In this document: piece after piece, positions 5 through 25,692 of the stretch
Position numbering within the stretch: the first letter of the stretch is position 1
How the letters are laid out: every line of letters starts with the position of its first letter
Source: a virus
DNA length: 26,467 bases
IMG/VR virus record: IMGVR_UViG_3300014838_000409
Location: 1-26,467 of that record
Reading direction: 5' to 3' (one strand)
Translations under genes and position numbers: made by a program
The notes under the pieces: generated by a model
The model's database searches: none
Seen by the model: the letters and a program-made list of their open reading frames with translations, nothing else
Told to the model about the DNA's origin: nothing

Positions 5-1354
5 TTACCAATTCTCCTCGAAGTCAAATGTCTTGGATGCAAGTTGTGAACCTCTGTTCGGGTATTTCCACGAAATTGCAGTATAAATGTCCAAAAGTTT
101 ACTTCTCAACTCACGGTCATACATCTTATTACGATCAATATGCTCGGTCATGAACTTCAATAGCTCATCGGGATCGGTATCATCACCCTTGATTGCTAAT
201 GATTCAATATAGAAATCATTGGGAAGCAGATAGACCCACTTGACCTTCTCCCCCGTGCGTATCTTCTCAAACTGTTTATCTAGTTTCCACACCTTCAACA
301 AATCATTGTAAGCTAATGCCGCACGAACTTGGGCGGGAGACTTCATAATAAACTGGAATAACTTGCGATGAGACGGATTGTAATCATTTTCTCCATCCTT
401 GGAGATGTAGCGAACCGAACTGGTCTTGGCAAGATTAACCATCTCAAGACTTTGGATGGTCTCCTCAAAATTCATGATGCGTTCATCAAGGTCGGATTGC
501 GGAGTTCCCCGCAATAAATCATCAATCATATTTGAGGCAAACTTGCGAAACGCTGTCGGGAAACTTGAACGAACTACGTCAATGCCTTTGACTTCCAGTT
601 TACCCTCCTTACCGTCCTTGGACTTGACAGCCTTGTTCTTCTCCATGTCATAGACCTTAAGCATAGCGTAACGCTTCTTAGATACCCACATTGCCTTTTT
701 AGCAATTACGTCCGCCATGATCTTTATACGATTATGGTCAGGTGCCACATTGAATATCTTGGGCACCATATAGTTATAGAAATTATTGATTCGGGTGGAT
801 ACTGCGGTCACCCAATCAATGGTGAACTTAGTCATGTCTTCTTCTTTTACATTCTGCAATTTGGCCACTGACAATGCTGACATATACAGAGAGTCGGTAT
901 CAATGTAGATAACAAAGTCCTGTGCAGGAGGAACCACGTTTGCTTCCTTGAACTTTGTGAGATACATGTCATTGACTAATCGCTCGGCAGAACGAATAAT
1001 TTCTTGTCCCGAAGTAGTAACGGCTTCAGCATTGTCACGATCATAGAATCGGAACACAGGTAATCCTAATGCACCATAAACCGAGTTAAGGAAAATCTTC
1101 TGCCTCTTCTGACGACGGTCGTAGAATGATTCCTTTTCCTTGTCACCCTTCTTACCATACTCACCGGCAAGCTTGCGATATTCAACACGTTCCTTGAACC
1201 ATACATCAAGAATAGTAGGAACTACTCCACGCCCTTCTTCCTCAAATATATTCCCATCGGCATCTATACCCAGTCCGAGAGGTTTTAAATATGCATCAAG
1301 CAATTCCCGAGTTTCAAACTCAAGTATTTTTTCTTCTATTTCTACTTTTATCAT
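5..1354 (-). CDS. DNA polymerase family B, C-terminal fragment (palm/fingers/thumb)
   Basis: This is the catalytic C-terminal part of a T4-gp43-like replicative DNA polymerase. Motif B (KIFLNSVYG, residues 86-94) binds the incoming nucleotide. Motif C (IDTDS, around 151-155) supplies the metal-binding aspartates. A KKRY element follows in MWVSKKRYAM. The exonuclease domain and motif A are absent; they are in the separate gene at 2078-3463. At 449 aa it cannot be a complete polymerase (T4 gp43 is about 900 aa), but 449 plus 461 aa makes a normal total. Its ATG overlaps the HNH endonuclease stop (ATGA), so translation is probably coupled. Residues 17-50, including DADGNIFEEEGRGVVP, cover the linker between motifs A and B, and a related segment also ends the N-terminal piece. 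The two proteins probably assemble into one enzyme, as reported for split gene 43 in some T4-like phages. Family assignment is firm; activity of the split form is inferred. Confidence 0.95.
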   Translation of the reverse strand: MIKVEIEEKILEFETRELLDAYLKPLGLGIDADGNIFEEEGRGVVPTILDVWFKERVEYRKLAGEYGKKGDKEKESFYDRRQKRQKIFLNSVYGALGLPVFRFYDRDNAEAVTTSGQEIIRSAERLVNDMYLTKFKEANVVPPAQDFVIYIDTDSLYMSALSVAKLQNVKEEDMTKFTIDWVTAVSTRINNFYNYMVPKIFNVAPDHNRIKIMADVIAKKAMWVSKKRYAMLKVYDMEKNKAVKSKDGKEGKLEVKGIDVVRSSFPTAFRKFASNMIDDLLRGTPQSDLDERIMNFEETIQSLEMVNLAKTSSVRYISKDGENDYNPSHRKLFQFIMKSPAQVRAALAYNDLLKVWKLDKQFEKIRTGEKVKWVYLLPNDFYIESLAIKGDDTDPDELLKFMTEHIDRNKMYDRELRSKLLDIYTAISWKYPNRGSQLASKTFDFEENW

Positions 1355-2046
1355 ATCTTACGATACTCCACAATTCTTTTGCACATTTTTAAAAATTCAT
1401 CATCGGAGAAATCTTGCTTCATCCAATTAACATTTTTATGAACCCATTGAACGTTTCCTTTTACATATCCCCTCGATGAATCAATACGATCTAACGAAGC
1501 GGTTTGCTCAATTTTATCAGAACATCCAAATTCTAAATCCATACCAGATAATGCACACTTTCGTTTTTGCGAATCAAATAGATTCGAAATATATTCCAAT
1601 GTAATATCAAAATCTTTGTGAGTACGGATAGCATGATGTTTTATTCTTGTAAAAACTATCTTTGGAACTTTACCGAATCCTTTCCATAAATGGTTTAAAT
1701 TTTGGATTAAACATTTTTGACATCCATCATTATTTTCACATAACAATCGGGCGGCTCGTTTTTTAAGCACATTGCCACAATCACACCTACAAGAAACCTG
1801 AGTACCACTTCCTATTCGATTAGATAAAACAGTTAATTTTCCAAACCGCTGTCCTCGTTTGATGAGACAATCATACTTCGATCTATCTACAGTATTCTTC
1901 CATCTTTTTCTAGTAGCACATGATCGGCACAAAGTTCGTCCAAGTCGTTTCGATTCATAATATCCTTCATACGTAGGATAAAATTTAACCGCTTTGCAAT
2001 CGTCACAAATTATAGTCCATTTCTTAGAGTTCATATTTTCCTTCAT
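1351..2046 (-). CDS. HNH homing endonuclease splitting the DNA polymerase gene
   Basis: A free-standing HNH endonuclease of 231 aa that presumably spreads by cutting polymerase genes lacking it. The N-terminus has a zinc-ribbon pair (C14/C17 and C40/C43). Next comes a phage-typical module, GQRFGKLTVL followed by CRCDCGN (86-91) and more cysteines at 109/112. The C-terminal nuclease domain starts near CALSGMDLEFG, with SLDRIDS (184-190), GNVQWVHKNVN (197-207) and a conserved tail. These match HNH/EndoVII-like phage nucleases. Its stop overlaps the start of the C-terminal polymerase fragment, and its start lies 31 bp after the stop of the N-terminal fragment. It has its own start and stop, so it is an intergenic insertion and not an intein. 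I see no intron structure around it. A degraded relative lies at 3465-3640. Confidence 0.9.
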   Translation of the reverse strand: MKENMNSKKWTIICDDCKAVKFYPTYEGYYESKRLGRTLCRSCATRKRWKNTVDRSKYDCLIKRGQRFGKLTVLSNRIGSGTQVSCRCDCGNVLKKRAARLLCENNDGCQKCLIQNLNHLWKGFGKVPKIVFTRIKHHAIRTHKDFDITLEYISNLFDSQKRKCALSGMDLEFGCSDKIEQTASLDRIDSSRGYVKGNVQWVHKNVNWMKQDFSDDEFLKMCKRIVEYRKI

Positions 2047-2077
2047 CTATCATGACTATAAATATTAACAAAAAACA

Positions 2078-3463
2078 CTAACCGTCATTTTGTATTATTT
2101 TTCCAACAATTTTCCGGGTAGGTTGTTTATAGACAACTCCATTACTCGCTATAGAAAAAGCGTGATTAGCAATTAATTTCTTAAAATCATTGGAAGAATA
2201 TCCACGCTCACCTAGCCTTACAATAGGCATTTCTCCACGCTGAAACGCCATCATGTTCCATCCTTCGACCCTCCCAATTTTTTTCTCGGGACTTATATTT
2301 AATGTCATGATTACACTGGGATACAGTGACGTTATGTCCGCTGAACAAACCCAGTCATATAGTCCACTGACAGGTTCTTTAACGAATGCTCCAACGAATC
2401 CATCCTCACCACTTTCCTGCATGTCTTCATACTCTTCACGTCCACCAATGGGTTTATTGGAAGCAATTTTTCCAGAGCGAGATAAATATGTTAATATAGC
2501 CCCATCAATAAAGCGACTGGACATTTGAACCCATTCGTAAGGAACGTGCCCTTTATGACACACAGCTTGGGCAAGGTGAATGAAATCGTATTTATGGTCC
2601 AACTCCACCACGATCTTAACGTCCACCAAGTTATATTCGATATAACGATTCAAGTCTTCATTATACAATTGAGTCAAACTGCCACGATAAGTAAGCTTTT
2701 GATGCTTCAGTTCTTCATCTTTGGCAACATTTCCAAGTGCCCATGATGGTTTCATGACACCAATGAACTTCTTGTAGAGTTCCATATAGTCAAGACAAGA
2801 GACTCCTGCCACAACCATTTTGCGATTAAACTTGTTTTGATATACAATTCCAATCGGTGATAGACGATAGGCGGCTTGCTTTCCGACGACATTACGAATA
2901 CGATTGAAGAGATAAGGAATATCAAATCCATTAGAATTCCATCCCGTGACGATGGTAGGTTTGATCTGTTCCCACAGTGTCAAGCACGCATCCAATAAAG
3001 TATCCTCGCACTTAAACGAACGAATGTCAACTTCATCCGTAGTGCTGTTTGGGATTTTACATTCGGGGTCAAGAACCAATGAATGGTACTTGTTAGCCAC
3101 TTGGTCATATAATGCAATTGCAGTAATGGCTTTATCACCAGTTTGAATGTCAGGAAACCCACCTTCCGATGAAACTTCAATATCGATCACGACTATTTTA
3201 TGACCAACTGATACCTCATCACTATCAATATATTTATCTATGAGAGTCCGCATAGCTGGGTCAACATCCGACTCAAATAATGATGGGTCACGGTCATCGA
3301 ATGCCGTTATCTTATCCAACTCATCCCCATAAAGTGACCTGTATTTACCACCCGCCATCTTACGATAGGCATATCGTATTGTAGGAAATGATGAATATCC
3401 CGACATATCATCCCACAAATGAGTAACGCCATTCTTTTTATCGCAGAAAATATTTTGAAACAT
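2078..3463 (-). CDS. DNA polymerase family B, N-terminal fragment (exonuclease domain to motif A)
   Basis: The N-terminal half of the split replicative polymerase. The 3'-5' proofreading exonuclease motifs are present: Exo I VVIDIEV (D94, E96), Exo II NGFDIPYL (D181) and Exo III YNLVDV (Y277, D281). The polymerase domain begins with motif A, SADITSLYPSVI (D376), and NISPEKKIG. The protein ends at residue 461, soon after HAFSIASNGVVY, a segment that in whole polymerases leads to motif B. The last part (TRKIVGKIIQNDG) looks like an abrupt, altered end. The beginning resembles complete relatives, so the ATG at 3463 is probably close to native. Its start lies one base after the stop of a decayed HNH gene. 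Proofreading and half of the palm come from this protein, while motifs B and C come from the gene at 5-1354. Confidence 0.95.
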   Translation of the reverse strand: MFQNIFCDKKNGVTHLWDDMSGYSSFPTIRYAYRKMAGGKYRSLYGDELDKITAFDDRDPSLFESDVDPAMRTLIDKYIDSDEVSVGHKIVVIDIEVSSEGGFPDIQTGDKAITAIALYDQVANKYHSLVLDPECKIPNSTTDEVDIRSFKCEDTLLDACLTLWEQIKPTIVTGWNSNGFDIPYLFNRIRNVVGKQAAYRLSPIGIVYQNKFNRKMVVAGVSCLDYMELYKKFIGVMKPSWALGNVAKDEELKHQKLTYRGSLTQLYNEDLNRYIEYNLVDVKIVVELDHKYDFIHLAQAVCHKGHVPYEWVQMSSRFIDGAILTYLSRSGKIASNKPIGGREEYEDMQESGEDGFVGAFVKEPVSGLYDWVCSADITSLYPSVIMTLNISPEKKIGRVEGWNMMAFQRGEMPIVRLGERGYSSNDFKKLIANHAFSIASNGVVYKQPTRKIVGKIIQNDG

Positions 3464-3464
3464 A

Positions 3465-3640
3465 TTACTTGTGAATGCTTGATATTTTTTTACACATATT
3501 TATGAAATATTCATTTGAGAAGTCAAGTTTCATTAAATTAACATCTTTATGAATCCATTGAATATTTCCCCATAACGTAATCTTTACTGGAATCTATTCG
3601 GTCAAGAGATGCCGTATTTCCGTCTTAAATCTCTTCATAT
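3465..3640 (-). pseudogene. HNH endonuclease relic (C-terminal part, frameshifted)
   Basis: Read on the minus strand, this stretch encodes ASLDRIDSSKDYV, then after a one-base insertion GNIQWIHKDVN and LMKLDFSNEYFINMCKKIS before a TAA at 3465-3467. This closely matches the last ~50 residues of the intact HNH endonuclease at 1351-2046 (ASLDRIDSSRGYV, GNVQWVHKNVN, MKQDFSDDEFLKMCKRI). At DNA level the two regions align well except for one extra base near 3570-3590, which shifts the frame. A TAA lies in frame just before the recognisable part and the N-terminal two thirds are missing. It separates the 82-aa gene from the polymerase N-terminal gene, an operon join that would otherwise probably be tight. 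It is probably the remnant of an earlier insertion next to the polymerase gene. Confidence 0.85.
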
Positions 3641-3641
3641 A

Positions 3642-3890
3642 TTATTTTACATCTTTCGGCATCTCGGAGGAAATCTGTAACAGTTGAGGCTGAAGAGGAT
3701 TATTGTGGGTCATAAGAGTGACCCATATCTTAGCTCCAAACATCAATCTGATCGCATCCCAAAATGTAAGCTTCCAACAAGAAGTCACCAATCCATCCGG
3801 AGTTTTTGTCTTATAACTCGGGAGTGGAAGATATTCCGGCTGGTTTTTTGCGTGGATACTATTAGCTTCTGGAAAGTTTATTATTTTCAT
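3642..3890 (-). CDS. small conserved phage-type protein (82 aa), function unknown
   Basis: An 82-aa protein with a central segment SCWKLTFWDAIRLMFGAKIW followed by VTLMTHNNPLQPQL. This pattern (a WKL-x-FW-x-R-x-MFGAKIW stretch, then a short strand and 'LQPQL') recurs, to my knowledge, in small uncharacterised phage proteins. The central stretch is amphipathic with several aromatics, but it is not long or hydrophobic enough to be a clear membrane helix. The start overlaps the stop of the DUF5662-like gene upstream (ATGA). Downstream it is followed by the HNH relic. It probably belongs to the early replication operon. No function can be assigned. Confidence 0.75.
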   Translation of the reverse strand: MKIINFPEANSIHAKNQPEYLPLPSYKTKTPDGLVTSCWKLTFWDAIRLMFGAKIWVTLMTHNNPLQPQLLQISSEMPKDVK

Positions 3891-5450: not shown

Positions 5451-6425
5451 ATGAATACAGGAGTGTATAAAATAACAAATATGACAAATGGCAAGATTTA
5501 CGTCGGGTCCACATCAGCGTTAGGATTTAAGAAACGATGGTGGGGACACCGCACCAGATTACGGGCAAATACCCACTGGAACCAACATCTCCAAAACTCA
5601 TGGAACAAACACGGCGAACAGCAATTTCGGTTTGAAATCATTGAAGAATGTCTTCCCAACGACTGCATTCCCCGTGAACAGTATTATTTTGACACACTGC
5701 ACCCCCAATACAATATCCTGCAAACTGCGGGGTCTATGTTTGGGTATCGGCATACCACAGCAACAAAACAAAAAATAGGAGATGCGTGTCGAGGAGAAAA
5801 ACATCCACAATATGCTGGAAAACACATATTCTATCACCCCGAAGATGGATATTTTAACGGAGGTCTCACGGAACTATGCACCAAGTTTAAAATTCGTGAA
5901 AACACGGGGTATCGACTTAGAAGTGGAGAACTGGACAAATCTCACGGATGGATATACATTGGAAATGATAAAACTCCATTACCAGAAAATATAGATGAAT
6001 TTTATTACAGCCGAATTCATAACGACCGAACCATATATTCATTTTTTCATAAAATCCACGGAAGGTTTCAGGGCGTCATCCCCGATTTTATGAAAAAATA
6101 TAACATCTCATTTCAAAATCAATCGATAATTCGAAAACTAATAGATGGAAAACGAAAAATGGCTTGGGGATGGATATTCTTGGGCGAAGGAATTCAATAC
6201 ATAACGTCAGACATAGAAACTAAATATATGACTGCACTCAAACAAAATACTAAAGCAAATAATCATATGGACATTATCTACGAATTTTTCAATTTCAAAA
6301 CGACTGAAAATTTCCGAGGAACTTTGCGGGAGTTAATTCGAAATTATAATCTCAACGATAAATGTGCCCGTGAAATGCTCAGTCAAAGAAAACCCCACCT
6401 TAAAGGATGGACTATAAAAAGTTGA
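5451..6425 (+). CDS. GIY-YIG homing endonuclease with three C-terminal DNA-binding repeats
   Basis: The N-terminal GIY-YIG domain is complete: GVY (4-6) with YVG (17-19), the arginine region KKRWWGHR (27-34), the catalytic glutamate in PREQYYFD (E76), and the conserved asparagine in PQYNIL (N88). A NUMOD3-like segment follows (GYRHTTATKQKIGDACRG). The rest consists of three diverged ~48-residue repeats. Each runs 'IY-x-FF...G....L...Y.I......L..G.....GW': about residues 124-170 (ending HGWIYIG), 196-245 (ending AWGWIFLG) and 274-324 (ending LKGWTIKS). These probably read extended target DNA. The gene lies in the gap between the divergent Tat and Cas4-like genes and is bracketed by a 12-bp direct repeat. 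Its stop at 6425 runs into the promoter of the Cas4-like gene. Its start follows an AT-rich stretch without a clear ribosome site. Confidence 0.9.
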   Translation: MNTGVYKITNMTNGKIYVGSTSALGFKKRWWGHRTRLRANTHWNQHLQNSWNKHGEQQFRFEIIEECLPNDCIPREQYYFDTLHPQYNILQTAGSMFGYRHTTATKQKIGDACRGEKHPQYAGKHIFYHPEDGYFNGGLTELCTKFKIRENTGYRLRSGELDKSHGWIYIGNDKTPLPENIDEFYYSRIHNDRTIYSFFHKIHGRFQGVIPDFMKKYNISFQNQSIIRKLIDGKRKMAWGWIFLGEGIQYITSDIETKYMTALKQNTKANNHMDIIYEFFNFKTTENFRGTLRELIRNYNLNDKCAREMLSQRKPHLKGWTIKS

Positions 6426-7375: not shown

Positions 7376-7400
7376 AAGCCTCCCTTACGGGAGGTTTTTT
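7376..7400 (+). terminator. intrinsic (rho-independent) terminator after the Cas4-like gene
   Basis: A perfect 6-bp GC-rich stem (CCTCCC at 7379-7384 and GGGAGG at 7389-7394) with a TTAC loop can be extended by three weaker pairs. It is followed directly by six T residues. It lies 17 bp after the Cas4-like stop codon and before the next promoter. Confidence 0.9.
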
Positions 7401-7433
7401 GTTGTCCCTCAGTATAAAGATATTTATAAAAAC

Positions 7434-7461
7434 TTTACATAATAATTTTCAATTATATACT
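7434..7461 (+). promoter_or_regulatory. putative sigma70-type promoter for the NUMOD4/HNH endonuclease
   Basis: TTTACA (7434-7439), a 16-bp spacer and TATACT (7456-7461) match the consensus in five of six positions in each box. The predicted start, about 7468, coincides with the ATG of the endonuclease, so this transcript too would be leaderless. Confidence 0.55.
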
Positions 7462-7467
7462 TCAACC

Positions 7468-7995
7468 ATGAATGAAATATGGAAAGATATTACCGACTAT
7501 GTAGGAGTTTATCAGGCATCATCATTGGGACGCCTTCGACGAGTGAGTAAAACCGATTCAATCGGACGATGTTATAATTATTCCGACCTAAAAATTAGAA
7601 CGTTACCACGATATGATGCCGCAATATTTTGCCACAACGGAAAGCGTAAGATGATGTTGTTACATCAAGTGATTGCCCAAACATTTCTCCAATATCCAAC
7701 GTGCTGCCCAACATGTAAGACCCCATATGAAATAAATCACATAGATGGAAATCCACACAACAATGCAGCAGACAATTTAGAATATGTAACACATGTTGAA
7801 AACATTCAAAAGTCGAGAAATGCTCGACGTAAAAAACAATGGAAATCACTAGATGATACGAAAGTATTAAAAATCAAACACCTTCTCGCTCAAAAAATAA
7901 CTTCACAAGTCGAAATTTCTAAAATGTTTAATGTATCTAAAAGCACCATAAGTGAGATAGCACACAATAGAATATGGACGGATGTCTCACTATAA
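7468..7995 (+). CDS. NUMOD4/HNH homing endonuclease with C-terminal helix-turn-helix
   Basis: A 175-aa protein with the standard phage layout. A NUMOD4 motif comes first (IWKDITDYVGVYQASSLGRL, residues 4-23). The HNH domain follows, with LLHQVIAQTF (H66), a CCPTC knuckle (79-83), INHIDGNPHNNAADNLEYV (H91, N103) and the closing HVENIQKS. A helix-turn-helix at about 145-170 (SQVEISKMFNVSKSTISEIA) should bind DNA. The ATG at 7468 is preferred over an upstream in-frame extension to 7399. The NUMOD4 motif begins right there, and the extension would run through the terminator T-run and the promoter. The neighbours are a terminator on the left and the regulator gene on the right, so it sits in a transcriptionally quiet gap with its own promoter. 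Confidence 0.9.
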   Translation: MNEIWKDITDYVGVYQASSLGRLRRVSKTDSIGRCYNYSDLKIRTLPRYDAAIFCHNGKRKMMLLHQVIAQTFLQYPTCCPTCKTPYEINHIDGNPHNNAADNLEYVTHVENIQKSRNARRKKQWKSLDDTKVLKIKHLLAQKITSQVEISKMFNVSKSTISEIAHNRIWTDVSL

Positions 7996-15988: not shown

Positions 15989-17002
15989 TTGAAACATATT
16001 AGCATGACCACCGCATTTTTGACAGAAATGGGATTTACGGGAAAAGTTCCACTCAATCACCCCAACATGAGAACGGAGTTTTCATGGATGGCGACGTTAC
16101 AGTCAGACCACTTCAATATACATCAATACGAGATGGTCAAAAATTATGATGCGGTGTTCGTCATATTCCCAAAAGCCACAGTCAAACTGAATATGGTTGG
16201 AATGGAAATGACCACCACAGGAATAGACAAAGATATTACGATATATTCCAACCCCGTCATAGAAACACTCAAGAAAAATAATAGATTGGCATGTGTAGTT
16301 CAAGAAGGTCCATGTTATCTATTTAACGAGTATGATTTACCCAACCAGTTCAATTTCTATAATCAATTATCGGAATGCGACATCATATTTGCCCATAACG
16401 AATATGATACACATTTTTTCAAGGGATTATTCCCACGGACTAAAATAAAACGTATTCCAACCTTGATGATTGTCAATAAGGATACTTGTCCATCTGTATG
16501 GACCCCCGAGGAAAAAGCCATTATCAGTGGAAACTTTTGTAGATGGTATGGAGGATTTCAGAGCTATCTTGTAGCTACCGAGTTCCAATGCCCCATCTTT
16601 GTGCCTGCATCTCACTGCAAGCGTCCCGGTGAGGAGCAGGTGCCTAATTTGAATCATATGCCTTGGGTGTTTTGGACAGATTGGATGGAACACCTATCTC
16701 ATTTTAAATATGCCGCCAGTATGATGCCCACCATTGCAGCAGGAACATTCAGTGCCAACTGTGCTTATTATGGTATTCCATGCATCGGAAATGAAAAGGT
16801 AGATACACAGACGGAGTTTTTTCCCGACTTAAGTGTCGATGTTCACGATGTGTATGAAGCCCGTCATTTGGCGATTATGCTTCGTCAAGACAAACAGTTC
16901 TATGACAATTGTAGTAATCATGCCCGTCTCAAATTCAAAAATAGTGTCCACGGAAACCCAGACCTTTGGTTGGAAGAAATGAACGAATCTATCTATGGAT
17001 AA
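15989..17002 (+). CDS. glycosyltransferase-like protein, family not recognised
   Basis: A protein of up to 337 aa. There is no clear family signature. The second half has the feel of a GT-B donor domain: GGFQSYLVATEFQCPIFVPA, FKYAASMMPTIAAGTFSANC, YYGIPCIGNEKVDTQTEFFP and DVYEARHLAIML resemble the regions around the donor pocket of GT4 enzymes. It lacks an E-x7-E motif. The context within the glycan cluster supports a sugar-related role. The start is unclear: TTG at 15989 (TTGA with the end of a tiny upstream frame) or ATG at 16004. The end overlaps the GT2-GT11 fusion gene by 8 bp. Confidence 0.6.
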   Translation: MKHISMTTAFLTEMGFTGKVPLNHPNMRTEFSWMATLQSDHFNIHQYEMVKNYDAVFVIFPKATVKLNMVGMEMTTTGIDKDITIYSNPVIETLKKNNRLACVVQEGPCYLFNEYDLPNQFNFYNQLSECDIIFAHNEYDTHFFKGLFPRTKIKRIPTLMIVNKDTCPSVWTPEEKAIISGNFCRWYGGFQSYLVATEFQCPIFVPASHCKRPGEEQVPNLNHMPWVFWTDWMEHLSHFKYAASMMPTIAAGTFSANCAYYGIPCIGNEKVDTQTEFFPDLSVDVHDVYEARHLAIMLRQDKQFYDNCSNHARLKFKNSVHGNPDLWLEEMNESIYG

Positions 17003-18524
17003 CAACTTCGTTATTTTAATTGGAAGTCATAACAATGCCCAATGGGTTGAAAGTAACCTCAACTCTGTGCTTGTCCAAAACTATCCAAACTATAAGGTCG
17101 TTTATTTCGACGATGCTTCCACAGATGGAACCAAAGATGCCGTGGCAAGAAAGATTGAGGGCGACTCACGATTCACTATTGCTAATGTGGAAGAAAGAAA
17201 ATACAAGACGTGGTTCTTTTCCAACATTGAACATTTTAAGGAAATAAACGATAATGATATATTAGTATTCCTCGATGGCGATGACATGTTATATTGTGAA
17301 AACGTTCTTTCCTATCTGAATGAACTATACAACCAAACAAATTGTTGGATGACCTACGGTGGCATGGTGGTATGGAAGGGCGGGGAAGACCTTATTGAAC
17401 CATTTCCCCAAAATAGTGAAATTCCTCCACAAGTTTCAAAACAAAAACTATTTCGCAAGGATACATGGAGGACATCCCACCTAAAGACCATGCGAGCATT
17501 CGTATGGAAACGGATAGATAAAAATGACTTAATGCCCAATGGAATTCCATTGGTTGGACCCGATGATTTGGCAATCATGTTTGCCGCATTAGAACTGACG
17601 CCTGCCGACAAAATTCAAAGGGTCACCGAATCCATTTACCTTTACAACCATACCCAAGCGAATCAAAAGAGCCGAGCCTTCACGGACAATCAAGCGGTTG
17701 GTATTGACTATGAGTCTCCCATTAGAGCACGCAATCCGTACGATACTATCCAAATCATTTCTCCCACACTTGCGGGAGGACTCGGCAATCAGATGTTCGA
17801 GGTTGCTGCCGCCGCCTCTTTAGCCAAAGATAACAATGCGTTGCTCGTGATAAACCCTAATGAACACATTCTGCCGAACCAAGGTAGGAATATAAACATC
17901 TATTTATCCAATATATTTCGTAAAGTCGCCACTGATAGCAATCCTCCGTGTAAGCAGGAATATAAATGGGACCAAATGTCTTATGCCCCTATCCCATTTC
18001 AACCCGACACTAAACTCAAGAGTCATTTTCAATCGTTCAAGTATTTTGACCACAATCGGGACTATATCCGAGACCTGTTCGCCCCATCTAAAGATATTTT
18101 GGATAAAATAATAGACACATATCCAGATACATCCAATATTACCGCTATACAAGTAAGAAGAGGTGATTATATCAAATTTCCAAACCATCACCCTCTATTA
18201 TCATCAGAATATTATGCTAAAGCGGTAAATTCCCTTGCTTCTGAGAAGGTATGGGTGTTTAGTGATGATATTCAATGGTGTAAAGAAAACTTGCATTTCT
18301 ACTGTCCCGTCGAATACATAAAAGATGAGGACTACATCGAGTTATATCTCATGAGTCTATGCAAAAACATTGTTATATCAAATAGTTCTTTTGGGTGGTG
18401 GTCGAGCTATTTATCTAATGATTCTAACGTATATGTTCCTCCGATATGGTTTGGAAATGCCCTAATAAATAATGGATTTAAATATGAAGACTTGATATTG
18501 CCAGAATGGCATATAGTAAAATGA
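16995..18524 (+). CDS. GT2-GT11 fusion: glycosyltransferase plus alpha-1,2-fucosyltransferase domain
   Basis: A two-domain enzyme of 509 aa. Residues 1-240 are a GT2 domain: VILIGSHNNAQWVESNLNSV, FDDASTDG (D39/D40) and the metal site LDGDD (94-97). Residues ~255-509 are a GT11 domain: LAGGLGNQMFEVAAAASLA (GGLGNQ at 261-266), the GDP-fucose-binding VRRGDY (387-392) and SNSSFGWWSSYLS (around 462-474). The known GT11 family is alpha-1,2-fucosyltransferase (or galactoside 2-L-fucosyltransferase). The two active sites could add two successive sugars, the second being fucose. The linker at 225-255 has no motif. No frameshift is visible, so the fusion is real in this sequence. The stop overlaps the start of an inserted endonuclease gene (ATGA). 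Confidence 0.9.
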   Translation: MDNNFVILIGSHNNAQWVESNLNSVLVQNYPNYKVVYFDDASTDGTKDAVARKIEGDSRFTIANVEERKYKTWFFSNIEHFKEINDNDILVFLDGDDMLYCENVLSYLNELYNQTNCWMTYGGMVVWKGGEDLIEPFPQNSEIPPQVSKQKLFRKDTWRTSHLKTMRAFVWKRIDKNDLMPNGIPLVGPDDLAIMFAALELTPADKIQRVTESIYLYNHTQANQKSRAFTDNQAVGIDYESPIRARNPYDTIQIISPTLAGGLGNQMFEVAAAASLAKDNNALLVINPNEHILPNQGRNINIYLSNIFRKVATDSNPPCKQEYKWDQMSYAPIPFQPDTKLKSHFQSFKYFDHNRDYIRDLFAPSKDILDKIIDTYPDTSNITAIQVRRGDYIKFPNHHPLLSSEYYAKAVNSLASEKVWVFSDDIQWCKENLHFYCPVEYIKDEDYIELYLMSLCKNIVISNSSFGWWSSYLSNDSNVYVPPIWFGNALINNGFKYEDLILPEWHIVK

Positions 18525-19435
18525 AGAAAAAAACACAAGAAGAATTTATAAATGCTGCTTCGAAAAAACATAATAATAAATATGATTACTCAAAATCAAT
18601 TTATAATGGATGTAAGAAAAAAGTTATAATCATATGTAAGAAACACGGAGAATTTTTACAAGAAGCGTGGTCACATTTAAAAGGATTTGGATGCTCGGCA
18701 TGTAGTAATAATCTTAAATCTAATACTCCACAATTTATCTCTCAAGCGATTCAAAAACACGGGAATGAATATGATTATTCAAAATCAACATATAAAAATA
18801 AGAATAAAAAACTCGATATAATATGTAAAATTCACGGAGTTTTTTCTCAAACTCCAACGAACCACTTATCCGGACAAGGATGCCCTGCATGTTACGGCAC
18901 ATTTAAAAAATCGTCGGTAGAATTTATAGCAGACGCAATCAAAAAACACGGAAACATATATGATTATTCTCATATAAATTATTCGACGGCACATTCTCCT
19001 GTAAATATAATATGTAAAATTCATGGAAAGTTTTCCCAGACTCCACACAATCATCTAAAAGGACATGGATGTCCATCATGTTGTTCTTCATGGGGAGAAA
19101 CACGAATTGAACAGTGGTTGAAAATGAACAATATTCAATATGAACGACAAAAAACATTTTCCAATCTGAAAAATCCAAAAACCAGTTATCCATTAAAGTT
19201 TGATTTTTATGTTTCCTCGAAAAATTTACTAATTGAATATGATGGAGAACAACATTTCAAACTAGGAAGTATATTCGGAAAACATCAAATAACAATAAAA
19301 AATTTGAGAGATATAAAATATAGGGACAAAATAAAAACCAAATATGCAAAACACAATAAAATTCGACTATTAAGAATTCCATATACAGAATTCCCTAAAA
19401 TTCACGCAATACTAAATGAAAAAATAGTTCTATGA
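18521..19435 (+). CDS. homing-type endonuclease: three DUF723-like zinc repeats plus PD-(D/E)XK-like nuclease
   Basis: A 304-aa protein. Three ~58-residue repeats (about 5-62, 66-123 and 128-185) each follow 'F...A...HGN.YDYS...Y......V.IICK.HG.F.Q....HL.G.GCP.C', with paired Cys/His that should bind zinc and contact DNA. The last ~115 residues form a Vsr/DUF559-like nuclease: GETRIEQWLKMNN, then FDFYVSSKNLLIEYDGEQHF with its D...ExD/H catalytic set, and IRLLRIPY. ATGA overlaps join it to the fusion gene before and the GT10 gene after. It is clearly more AT-rich than they are (14 of 60 G/C at 18601-18660 against 22 of 60 at 19681-19740), consistent with transfer. The ATG at 18521 is chosen over an upstream in-frame start inside the previous gene. 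Confidence 0.88.
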   Translation: MKKKTQEEFINAASKKHNNKYDYSKSIYNGCKKKVIIICKKHGEFLQEAWSHLKGFGCSACSNNLKSNTPQFISQAIQKHGNEYDYSKSTYKNKNKKLDIICKIHGVFSQTPTNHLSGQGCPACYGTFKKSSVEFIADAIKKHGNIYDYSHINYSTAHSPVNIICKIHGKFSQTPHNHLKGHGCPSCCSSWGETRIEQWLKMNNIQYERQKTFSNLKNPKTSYPLKFDFYVSSKNLLIEYDGEQHFKLGSIFGKHQITIKNLRDIKYRDKIKTKYAKHNKIRLLRIPYTEFPKIHAILNEKIVL

Positions 19436-20301: not shown

Positions 20302-20319
20302 TTGGCAATATTTATTGGT

Positions 20320-21231
20320 ATGAGTCGAAAATTAACAATCGCACAATTTAAAGAAAACGCCATTAAAATTCATGGAAATGTTTATGATTATTCAGACTCC
20401 AACTATAACGGATATGAGGAGAAAATATTAATTAAATGCAAAAAGCATGGAAAGTTTTATCAGACCCCACACAATCATATAGGGAACGAGCAAGGGTGTC
20501 CTATCTGTCATAGGTTAACGAAAACGACAAACGAGTTTATAATTAATGCCAAAAAAATACATAAAAATAGATTCGACTATTCGGATACAAAATATATTAA
20601 TAATTACACCCCAGTTATTATCAAATGTCATGTTCATGGCAATTTTACACAATTACCAAAAAATCATCTGAATGGAACTCCCTGTCCAAAATGTTCAAAG
20701 GAAAAAGAAACACACACCACAGATGACTTTATAAAATCGGCTATACAAACTCATGGACAATTGTATAACTATGATGGGGTAGATTATAAAACGTCATATG
20801 ATAAAGTAAAAATTATTTGTCGAAAACACGGACCATTTTGGATAAGACCAAATAATCATTTGGCAAGTAAAAGTGGGTGTCCCAAATGCCGATGGTCTAA
20901 AGGAGAATTAAAAATTTTTAATTACCTAAATGGAAGAAAGATTGAGTTTGAACGGAATAAAACATTTCCGCTTTGCGTAGGTAAAACTGGATGGACTCTA
21001 AAATATGATTTTTATATTCCATCGGTCAAGTTATTAATAGAATACGATGGCGAACAACACTTCAAACCATCCATGATAGGATATTATAAGGTATCAAAGA
21101 ATGATGTCAAAAACAATCAATGTCGTGATAGAATAAAGGATAAATTCGCCAATGATAACGGTATTAAATTGTTGCGGATTCCGTATTGGAAAGAACGCCA
21201 CATCGAAAAAATATTGGAAGAAAATTTATGA
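20320..21231 (+). CDS. homing-type endonuclease, second DUF723-like/PD-(D/E)XK-like protein
   Basis: A 303-aa paralogue of the protein at 18521-19435 with the same plan. There are three Cys/His repeats, for example IKCKKHGKFYQTPHNHIG, IKCHVHGNFTQLPKNHLNG and IICRKHGPFWIRPNNHLAS, each closing with C-x-x-C. The same nuclease domain follows: KGELKIFNYLNG, YDFYIPSVKLLIEYDGEQHF and IKLLRIPYW. The nuclease domains are much more alike than the repeats, as expected if repeats diverge to read different targets. The ATG at 20320 is preferred over a TTG at 20302. It is preceded by ATATTTATTGGT, nearly the same as the bases before the GIY-YIG ATG. It overlaps the next gene by ATGA. Confidence 0.88.
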   Translation: MSRKLTIAQFKENAIKIHGNVYDYSDSNYNGYEEKILIKCKKHGKFYQTPHNHIGNEQGCPICHRLTKTTNEFIINAKKIHKNRFDYSDTKYINNYTPVIIKCHVHGNFTQLPKNHLNGTPCPKCSKEKETHTTDDFIKSAIQTHGQLYNYDGVDYKTSYDKVKIICRKHGPFWIRPNNHLASKSGCPKCRWSKGELKIFNYLNGRKIEFERNKTFPLCVGKTGWTLKYDFYIPSVKLLIEYDGEQHFKPSMIGYYKVSKNDVKNNQCRDRIKDKFANDNGIKLLRIPYWKERHIEKILEENL

Positions 21232-24449: not shown

Positions 24450-24578
24450 ATGAAGAATTTAAAAATATCCGAGGAAACCCACCGTAAACTTAAGATTTAT
24501 TGTGCAAAAAATAATTTGAAAATGAATGAGTGGGTAGATACTCTAATAAAACGCAATATTAAATCAAATGTCAAGTAA
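24450..24578 (+). CDS. tiny ribbon-helix-helix protein (42 aa)
   Basis: A 42-aa frame starting MKNLKISEETHRKLKIYCAK and continuing KMNEWVDTLIKR. This matches a minimal ribbon-helix-helix domain: the LKIS strand, a helix from EETHRKLKIYC, a turn, and a second helix from MNEWVDTLIKR. Its end overlaps the start of the repeat endonuclease at 24568 by 11 bp, so the two are probably co-translated. The protein may regulate the endonuclease or help it bind DNA. Upstream is an AT-rich gap of 40 bases with a possible TATATT -10 (24433-24438) but no good -35. Confidence 0.7.
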   Translation: MKNLKISEETHRKLKIYCAKNNLKMNEWVDTLIKRNIKSNVK

Positions 24579-25692
24579 ATTAACAACTGAAGAATTTATT
24601 AGACGTGCTCAGATTATTCATAATAACATTGTTTATGACAAAGTTATTTATAACGGCACACATTCCAAGGTCGTATTGCGATGCCCAATTCATGGACAAT
24701 TCCGACAAACTCCACATAACCATTTAATTGGATGTGGATGCCCCGGCTGTGGAGGAAAAGTTAAATTGGACAATAAATTATATATTAAACGTGCCAAGGA
24801 AATACATGGAAATTTTTATGATTATTCAGAATTAAATTATCAAACATCCAAGAGTAAAGTCAAAATAATATGCCCAATTCACGGACAATTCTTTCAGCTA
24901 CCATCTAGTCATCTCGAAGGGCATGGATGTTCTCATTGCGGCGGGTCAAATAAATGGACGACGAATCAATTCATAACAATTGCATCCGGGTTACATAAAA
25001 ATAAATATGATTATTCCGACACTGTTTACACCAACAATAATACAAAAATAACCATTATATGTCCTATACACGGGAAATTTCAACAACGAGCAGCAGATCA
25101 CATCAGAACAAAACATGGATGTACTAAATGCAGTGGAGTAAATAAAAAATCCAATTCTGACTTTATAATGGATGCCATCAAATTACATGGACATAAATAT
25201 GAGTATCCGAAAGCCAATTACAAAAACGATTATACAAAAATAGTCATTACATGTAAAAACCACGGTGATTTTTTACAGACGCCAAATCGCCACTTACAGG
25301 GCGATGGCTGTCCAAAATGCACTCATAAAATATCTGCCCCAGAAATAAAATTTTTGAATTATTGTAGAATCCCCGATAACATAAACCATAGACAAAAATA
25401 TATTGCTCCATATAAAGTAGATGCGGAACACAATGGTATTATCTATGAATTTCTCGGGGATTATTGGCACGGAAATCCATCCAAATATTCACATAAAAAT
25501 ATAAACCAATCAACACATAAAACTTTCGGAAAATTGTATGCTGATACAGTTCTCAAATTTCAAAGATTAAATCAATTGGGATATAAAATCAGATATATTT
25601 GGGAATCCGATTGGCTTCAATTCGAAAACGGCATAACATCAATCCCGAAAATAATAGAATACAATGGCAATATTCCGAGTCAAGCACAATAA
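24568..25692 (+). CDS. homing-type endonuclease: four DUF723-like repeats plus EDxHD (Vsr-like) nuclease
   Basis: A 374-aa protein. Four Cys/His repeats make up the first ~265 residues, such as LRCPIHGQFRQTPHNHLIG, IICPIHGQFFQLPSSHLEG, IICPIHGKFQQRAADHIRT and ITCKNHGDFLQTPNRHLQG, each closed by C-x-x-C. The nuclease domain differs from that of the two paralogues. KISAPEIKFLNY is followed by YKVDAEHNGIIYEFLGDYWH, GNPSKY, LKFQRLNQLGYKIRYIWESD. The acidic and histidine residues (E, D, then H in GDYWHGNP and D in ESDW) suggest the EDxHD type of phage homing endonuclease related to Vsr, as in I-Bth0305I. The same repeat module is thus joined to two nuclease types in one window. It overlaps a 42-aa RHH gene upstream and the methyltransferase start downstream (29 bp). 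Confidence 0.85.
   Translation: MSSKLTTEEFIRRAQIIHNNIVYDKVIYNGTHSKVVLRCPIHGQFRQTPHNHLIGCGCPGCGGKVKLDNKLYIKRAKEIHGNFYDYSELNYQTSKSKVKIICPIHGQFFQLPSSHLEGHGCSHCGGSNKWTTNQFITIASGLHKNKYDYSDTVYTNNNTKITIICPIHGKFQQRAADHIRTKHGCTKCSGVNKKSNSDFIMDAIKLHGHKYEYPKANYKNDYTKIVITCKNHGDFLQTPNRHLQGDGCPKCTHKISAPEIKFLNYCRIPDNINHRQKYIAPYKVDAEHNGIIYEFLGDYWHGNPSKYSHKNINQSTHKTFGKLYADTVLKFQRLNQLGYKIRYIWESDWLQFENGITSIPKIIEYNGNIPSQAQ

Follow-up and report, generated by a model that had tools for sequence, protein, structure and literature searches.

A T4-type DNA polymerase in two proteins around an HNH gene: evidence for a mobile cassette that may supply docking segments at the break

Gene organization of the split polymerase locus

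The sequence analyzed here, hereafter the window, is the whole 26,467-base virus record IMGVR_UViG_3300014838_000409, itself a fragment. Three intact open reading frames lie at its beginning on the minus strand and are transcribed in the order N piece, HNH endonuclease gene and C piece. The N piece (2078–3463, 461 aa) starts at the native N-terminus of a family B DNA polymerase (PolB) and comprises the N-terminal domain, the 3'-5' exonuclease and palm motif A. The C piece (5–1354, 449 aa) has a body (5–1228) that holds the fingers, motif B, motif C (YIDTDS), the thumb and the native C-terminus. Pfam matches the N piece to DNA_pol_B_exo1 (1.5e-18) and to positions 16–89 of DNA_pol_B, and the C piece to positions 113–348 of the latter (2e-27). 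All catalytic motifs are kept (DIEV, DITSLYPS, KIFLNSVYG and YIDTDS were found), and the pieces match PHROG 262 at 1e-93 and 2e-73. With Exo1 and DNA_pol_B domains and motifs A to C in order across two proteins, the enzyme belongs to the T4-type (gp43) group of family B. A preliminary description of this DNA, which proposed a PolB divided into two proteins with an intact HNH gene between them, exonuclease and motif A on the first and motifs B and C on the second, is borne out by the frames, the domains and motifs, and three further contigs.

The intact homologues (L004, L005 and Microcystis phage Mel-JY01) have 849–860 aa; the N piece begins, and the C piece ends, at the same residue as they do, so that only the covalent link is missing. 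The same alignment, which the preliminary description had proposed as a check, also shows that the halves overlap, and it ruled out an initial idea, suggested by T4, that the N piece had lost its N-terminus. Mel-JY01 is the nearest isolate, at 36–41% identity, in agreement with the earlier view of a lineage distant from T4 gp43, though the fold is that of RB69 gp43. Between polymerase bodies dN is ~0.2 and dS is near or beyond saturation. As for the second, intact polymerase gene that the preliminary description had held out as the contrary case, no further PolB turned up in the four split records, all of which are fragments.

The HNH gene (1351–2046, minus strand, 231 aa) overlaps the start of the C piece with its stop codon, in the sequence ATGA at 1354–1351, and in all four split loci the end of the HNH gene meets or crosses the start of the C piece. 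Its protein matches PHROG 3322 endonucleases (4e-25) and PHROG 3118 HNH proteins (2e-12), and matched no family in Pfam. HNH-family sequence, relatives with an empty site and patchy occurrence at a single site are all seen here, as in a free-standing HNH homing endonuclease. Directly upstream of the N piece, tblastn revealed a feature beyond the preliminary description, what is left of another HNH gene from this family, disrupted by frameshift (~3468–3615, minus strand; four family members match at E 4e-10 to 8e-12 and a fifth at 5e-9); at its place intact HNH genes are found in L004:5080–5715 and L074:2284–2865. With these genes before the polymerase and those inside it, two sites of the polymerase locus have received members of this nuclease family. 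Relatives occur in the huge phages LR745208, LR756501 and LR756511 as well, with no recognisable polymerase gene adjacent in the stretches read.

Position of the break and structure of the junction

The break maps by alignment to RB69 residues 465–469, at the border between palm and fingers by the domain limits of the RB69 structure. The earlier placement between motifs A and B in the palm/fingers region thus holds for the motifs, and the site is refined to this border. Known split gp43s are interrupted ~40 residues away, near RB69 512/513 in phage 44RR and at 504–513 in Acinetobacter phages, both in the fingers and without overlap. The window has neither a fingers break near residue 512 nor non-overlapping halves, and the different site together with the overlap marks this as an independent split.

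In the alignment to intact relatives, a palm element (..DFKKLIANHAFSIASNGVVYKQ) is still contained in the N piece, whose last residues are PTRKIVGKIIQNDG. This native beta-beta-alpha-beta-beta element is retained at 2126–2224 (minus strand; residues 414–446, ..IVRLGERGYSSNDFKKLIANHAFSIASNGVVYK), as seen both in the alignment and in an AlphaFold model, which places its strands and helix at 414–417, 420–423, 424–430, 436–438 and 443–446. It is followed by a tail, QPTRKIVGKIIQNDG, and a stop codon (2078–2125, minus strand), which replace the native QDxxGVVPTIL and are predicted to add an extra strand at 450–458. The C piece starts with MIKVEIEEKILEFETRELLDAYLKPLGLGIDADGNIFEEEGR before joining the native GVVPTILDVWF. 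Its first 42 residues (1229–1354, minus strand), here called the cap, are a diverged second palm element according to alignment, hhalign and AlphaFold, so that a copy of the element, which the preliminary description had not recorded, is present in both pieces. That the extension of the C piece is foreign or random sequence is ruled out by this homology.

Tail and cap are conserved among the four split loci. The tails read QPTRKIVGKII, QPHRKIIGKVL, QPEKKIVGKII and QPEKKIVGKII, with the motif QPxxKIxGK in 4/4. The caps have in common D-x-[DN]-[GD]-N-I where matched native elements read S-x-[SAG]-x-[NSA]-G, the window's cap carrying GIDADGNIF at the place of the native SIASNGVVY. A profile of the four caps matches the native element of 70 polymerases in hhalign with a probability of 92 (E 6e-7); compared singly with the native profile, three caps score above every one of 500 shuffles, and the window's own cap does not. 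For the L018/L025 pair the cap has a dN/dS of ~0.27, a value which indicates that it is under purifying selection. Conserved new termini thus stand at the break on both halves, as in insertion-derived assembly tails of the Aeh1 NrdA type.

AlphaFold models the C piece (34-row alignment) with a mean pLDDT of 86, and of 83–89 over the first 20 residues of the cap. The predicted cap elements (E2–6, E9–13, H16–26, E28–30, E36–38) follow the strand-strand-helix-strand-strand order that the N piece's native element shows. Since the N and C pieces happen to share one reading frame in the window, a read-through of that frame was modelled as a single chain, which is not a prediction of a complex, with intact relatives as the alignment. 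Both halves form one PolB of the gp43 fold (RB69 gp43, TM 0.80 by target, E 1e-46), the filler between them is unfolded and the tail appears as the extra strand. The native fold is favoured in this model because the alignment was made of intact relatives, and the result is compatible with assembly of the halves.

Recurrence and phylogenetic distribution

A scan with the relatives' alignment found the same split residue, overlap, tail, cap and HNH family in three further IMG/VR contigs (L009, L018 and L025), which excludes an accident of assembly. The break is spanned by one frame in 156 of 168 loci. The other 12 include the window itself (2) and these three contigs; the remainder comprise contig ends, an intact fragment present in duplicate (L003/L010), the split of Acinetobacter phages and a single frame carrying a deletion. 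Genome contigs searched with the tail peptide, a DNA pattern of the tail and the cap yielded only L009, L018 and L025 again, and among isolated phages none convincingly carries the tail. The broken polymerase frames of L101, L111 and L066 were set aside, as they look like frameshifts or deletions and not like the HNH cassette. The PolB of L101 (L101:4501–7139) breaks between motifs B and C into two frames that overlap at ATGA, with a run of A close by, and could be a frameshift, an error or a third type of split. In L018 the frame of the N piece extends upstream (L018:2040–2210) without ATG, GTG or TTG, through either a non-standard start codon or a sequencing error.

Trees were built from the N and C bodies, leaving out the overlap. 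The split alleles are scattered on both, with a minimum of four changes between split and intact states, as expected of a mobile cassette. AU tests reject a single clade of all four split alleles (p 4e-61 for N, 1e-10 for C) and a clade of L018 and L025 (4e-81 and 4e-17); a sister pair of the window and L009 is rejected by the C tree (p 0.009) and not by the N tree (p 0.20). L025 is sister to the intact L050 with 100% support and ~90% amino acid identity. Their DNA identity is 62–96% along the N piece, falls to 36% at the tail and 38–52% in the cap, and is back to 73–89% in the C body ~60 columns past the cap start. The close intact relatives of L009 are L003 and L015. L009 and L003 are mostly 78–100% identical in DNA over codons 60–320 after the break and 52–67% over the first 60 codons, which resemble the intact L015 instead; a co-conversion tract was considered for these codons and dropped, as no single donor is picked out.

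Cap similarity follows the clades, with 54% between the window and L009, 60% between L018 and L025, and 31–40% across clades. The split polymerases are ~50% identical between the two clades; those of the window and L009 are 74–77% identical, and their HNH proteins only 40%. As cap divergence tracks the polymerase clades, one old origin with losses also fits, and recent transfer between clades is unsupported. The safest reading of these sequences would be exchange within clades from one old origin.

Small genes additional to those of the window lie between the N piece and the HNH gene in L018 (3492–3890, YopX-like), L025 (3579–3881) and L009 (~3673–3885). With such differing small cargo, it is as if the split had opened a new intergenic site.

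Proposed mechanism and alternative explanations

The model proposed here, with a probability of roughly two in three, is that of a functional two-subunit PolB split by a mobile HNH cassette, which supplies a docking tail and cap together with a homing nuclease. The HNH insertion assumed in the preliminary description is present, but not as a bare gene: the cassette would consist of the tail with its stop codon, the HNH gene, and an ATG followed by the duplicated cap. It would have entered an intact gp43-type gene where, at a conserved position, the palm hairpin (NGVxYxQ) gives way to the first fingers helix (GVxPxIL), leaving the N piece to end in the cassette's strand-forming tail and the C piece to be translated, probably by coupling, from the ATGA overlap. 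Tail and cap would be docking surfaces, through which the exonuclease/palm and fingers/palm/thumb parts may assemble non-covalently. The nuclease would cut intact alleles at the junction, and repair would copy the cassette, whose insertion destroys the cut site, so that the carrier would be protected. That the HNH protein is an active nuclease is inferred from its family, and the cassette is presumed to move from split to intact alleles. A further view, put forward tentatively and as a serious possibility rather than the expected outcome, is that of a homing element with its own protein-level repair kit, in which the duplicate cap and strand-forming tail re-dock the enzyme it breaks, gained or lost at least four times.

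The polymerase could be functional with tail and cap as passive by-products of an old imprecise insertion that duplicated the target segment, fold complementation alone holding the halves together. The split gp43s of 44RR and Acinetobacter phages have neither overlap nor shared tail, yet split gp43 is reported to be active (PMC2988022), so that in 44RR fold complementation alone must suffice; the AlphaFold model, too, completes the fold from native parts. Passive remnants would hardly keep a tail motif in four loci whose polymerases are ~50% identical between clades, nor a derived cap signature absent from the matched natives, and the selection on the L018/L025 cap points the same way, which makes this explanation unlikely. 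An old, vertically inherited split, in which recombination repeatedly restored the intact gene and the HNH gene settled later in a gap that already existed, would account for the clade-wise divergence of the caps, for HNH proteins far more divergent than the polymerases around them and for the variable extra genes in the gap. It is nevertheless improbable, given one HNH family in all four loci, the nesting of L025 as sister to the intact L050 and the rejection of the L018 and L025 clade.

Splicing of RNA or protein that reunites the halves, through a group I or II intron or a split intein, has precedents in phage MIJ3, where a split intein surrounds a polymerase-internal HNH gene (PMC6892783), and in the related L004, which has one in its clamp-loader gene. 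No Rfam family matched the first 4.5 kb of the window (E up to 5) or L009, L018 and L025 (E up to 0.5), and the conserved ribozyme core of a group I intron is thus missing. Tail and cap, with ~57 residues in total, cannot accommodate a Hint domain, nor do they have the N-terminal Cys/Ser and C-terminal His-Asn, so that a split intein, with Hint-domain halves flanking the break, has neither room nor motifs here; the cap, besides, is homologous to the polymerase. Splicing is therefore scarcely credible. It is also very improbable that the polymerase is dead or an assembly chimera and another enzyme replicates the genome: all split records are fragments and the window also holds one HNH remnant, but the arrangement is found in four independent contigs with open frames, catalytic motifs and signs of constraint, and a second PolB was not found in these records.

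Relation to known split enzymes

Aeromonas phage Aeh1 offers the closest functional parallel to the proposed cassette, as a homing endonuclease gene splits an essential enzyme there too. Crona et al. in 2011 are said to have found that its nrdA is split by mobE, and that the insertion-derived tails are interaction domains with an essential role; an assembly role of the window's tail and cap would be analogous. The enzyme is a different one, the N-terminal addition in the window can be recognised as a duplicate of a structural element of the host enzyme itself, and the cassette recurs in four loci.

In Aeromonas phages 44RR and 25 (NC_005135; PMC2988022), a gp43-type PolB is likewise encoded in two cistrons, with a nuclease gene associated in phage 25, and the split 43A/43B proteins are reported to co-purify with polymerase activity (review PMC2988022). 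The principle of a split gp43 with a mobile nuclease was therefore known, as the preliminary description stated, but the site in the window differs, the Aeromonas halves have no overlap and no shared tail or cap, and the nuclease of phage 25 is of the seg type and not HNH. Acinetobacter Lazarusvirus and ZZ1 (PMC4177764) also make PolB as two proteins, with a break at RB69 ~504/513 and no nuclease between the halves, which in vB_AbaM_DLP2 lie ~30 kb apart. MIJ3 and PA5oct (PMC6892783) resemble the window in having an HNH gene between two polymerase genes, but there intein halves, which the window lacks, are reported to splice the protein.

If true, the repair-kit element would be a non-covalent counterpart of the intein in phage polymerases, and insertion-derived assembly tails would be known from a replicative polymerase as well as from the one case studied so far, Aeh1 NrdA. 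The break at the palm/fingers border also offers a new place, found in nature, to split PolB enzymes. With replicates provided by nature and with intact alleles close to the split ones (L050/L025 and L003/L009), the splitting of an essential enzyme by a selfish gene, without death of the host, can be tested directly.

Other observations

In L004 the clamp-loader gene (L004:10747–13107) is fractured, with the halves of a split intein (PF14890, 6.5e-7) flanking a TnsA-like nuclease ORF; this is another replisome gene of the same phage group with a different solution to fragmentation. A TnpB-like ORF with a Cas12f1-like TNB domain (L005:4326–5471) lies directly upstream of the intact polymerase of L005. 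The window holds five more free-standing homing-type nucleases (18506–19435, 20302–21231, 24568–25692, 5451–6425 and 7399–7995), of which three have repeated treble-clef CxxHG units, one is of the GIY-YIG/NUMOD3 type and one is a NUMOD4-HNH protein; three of the five sit among the sugar-transfer genes of the window. That gene cluster also encodes, at 16995–18524, a family 2 glycosyltransferase fused to a family 11 (fucosyltransferase-type) domain.
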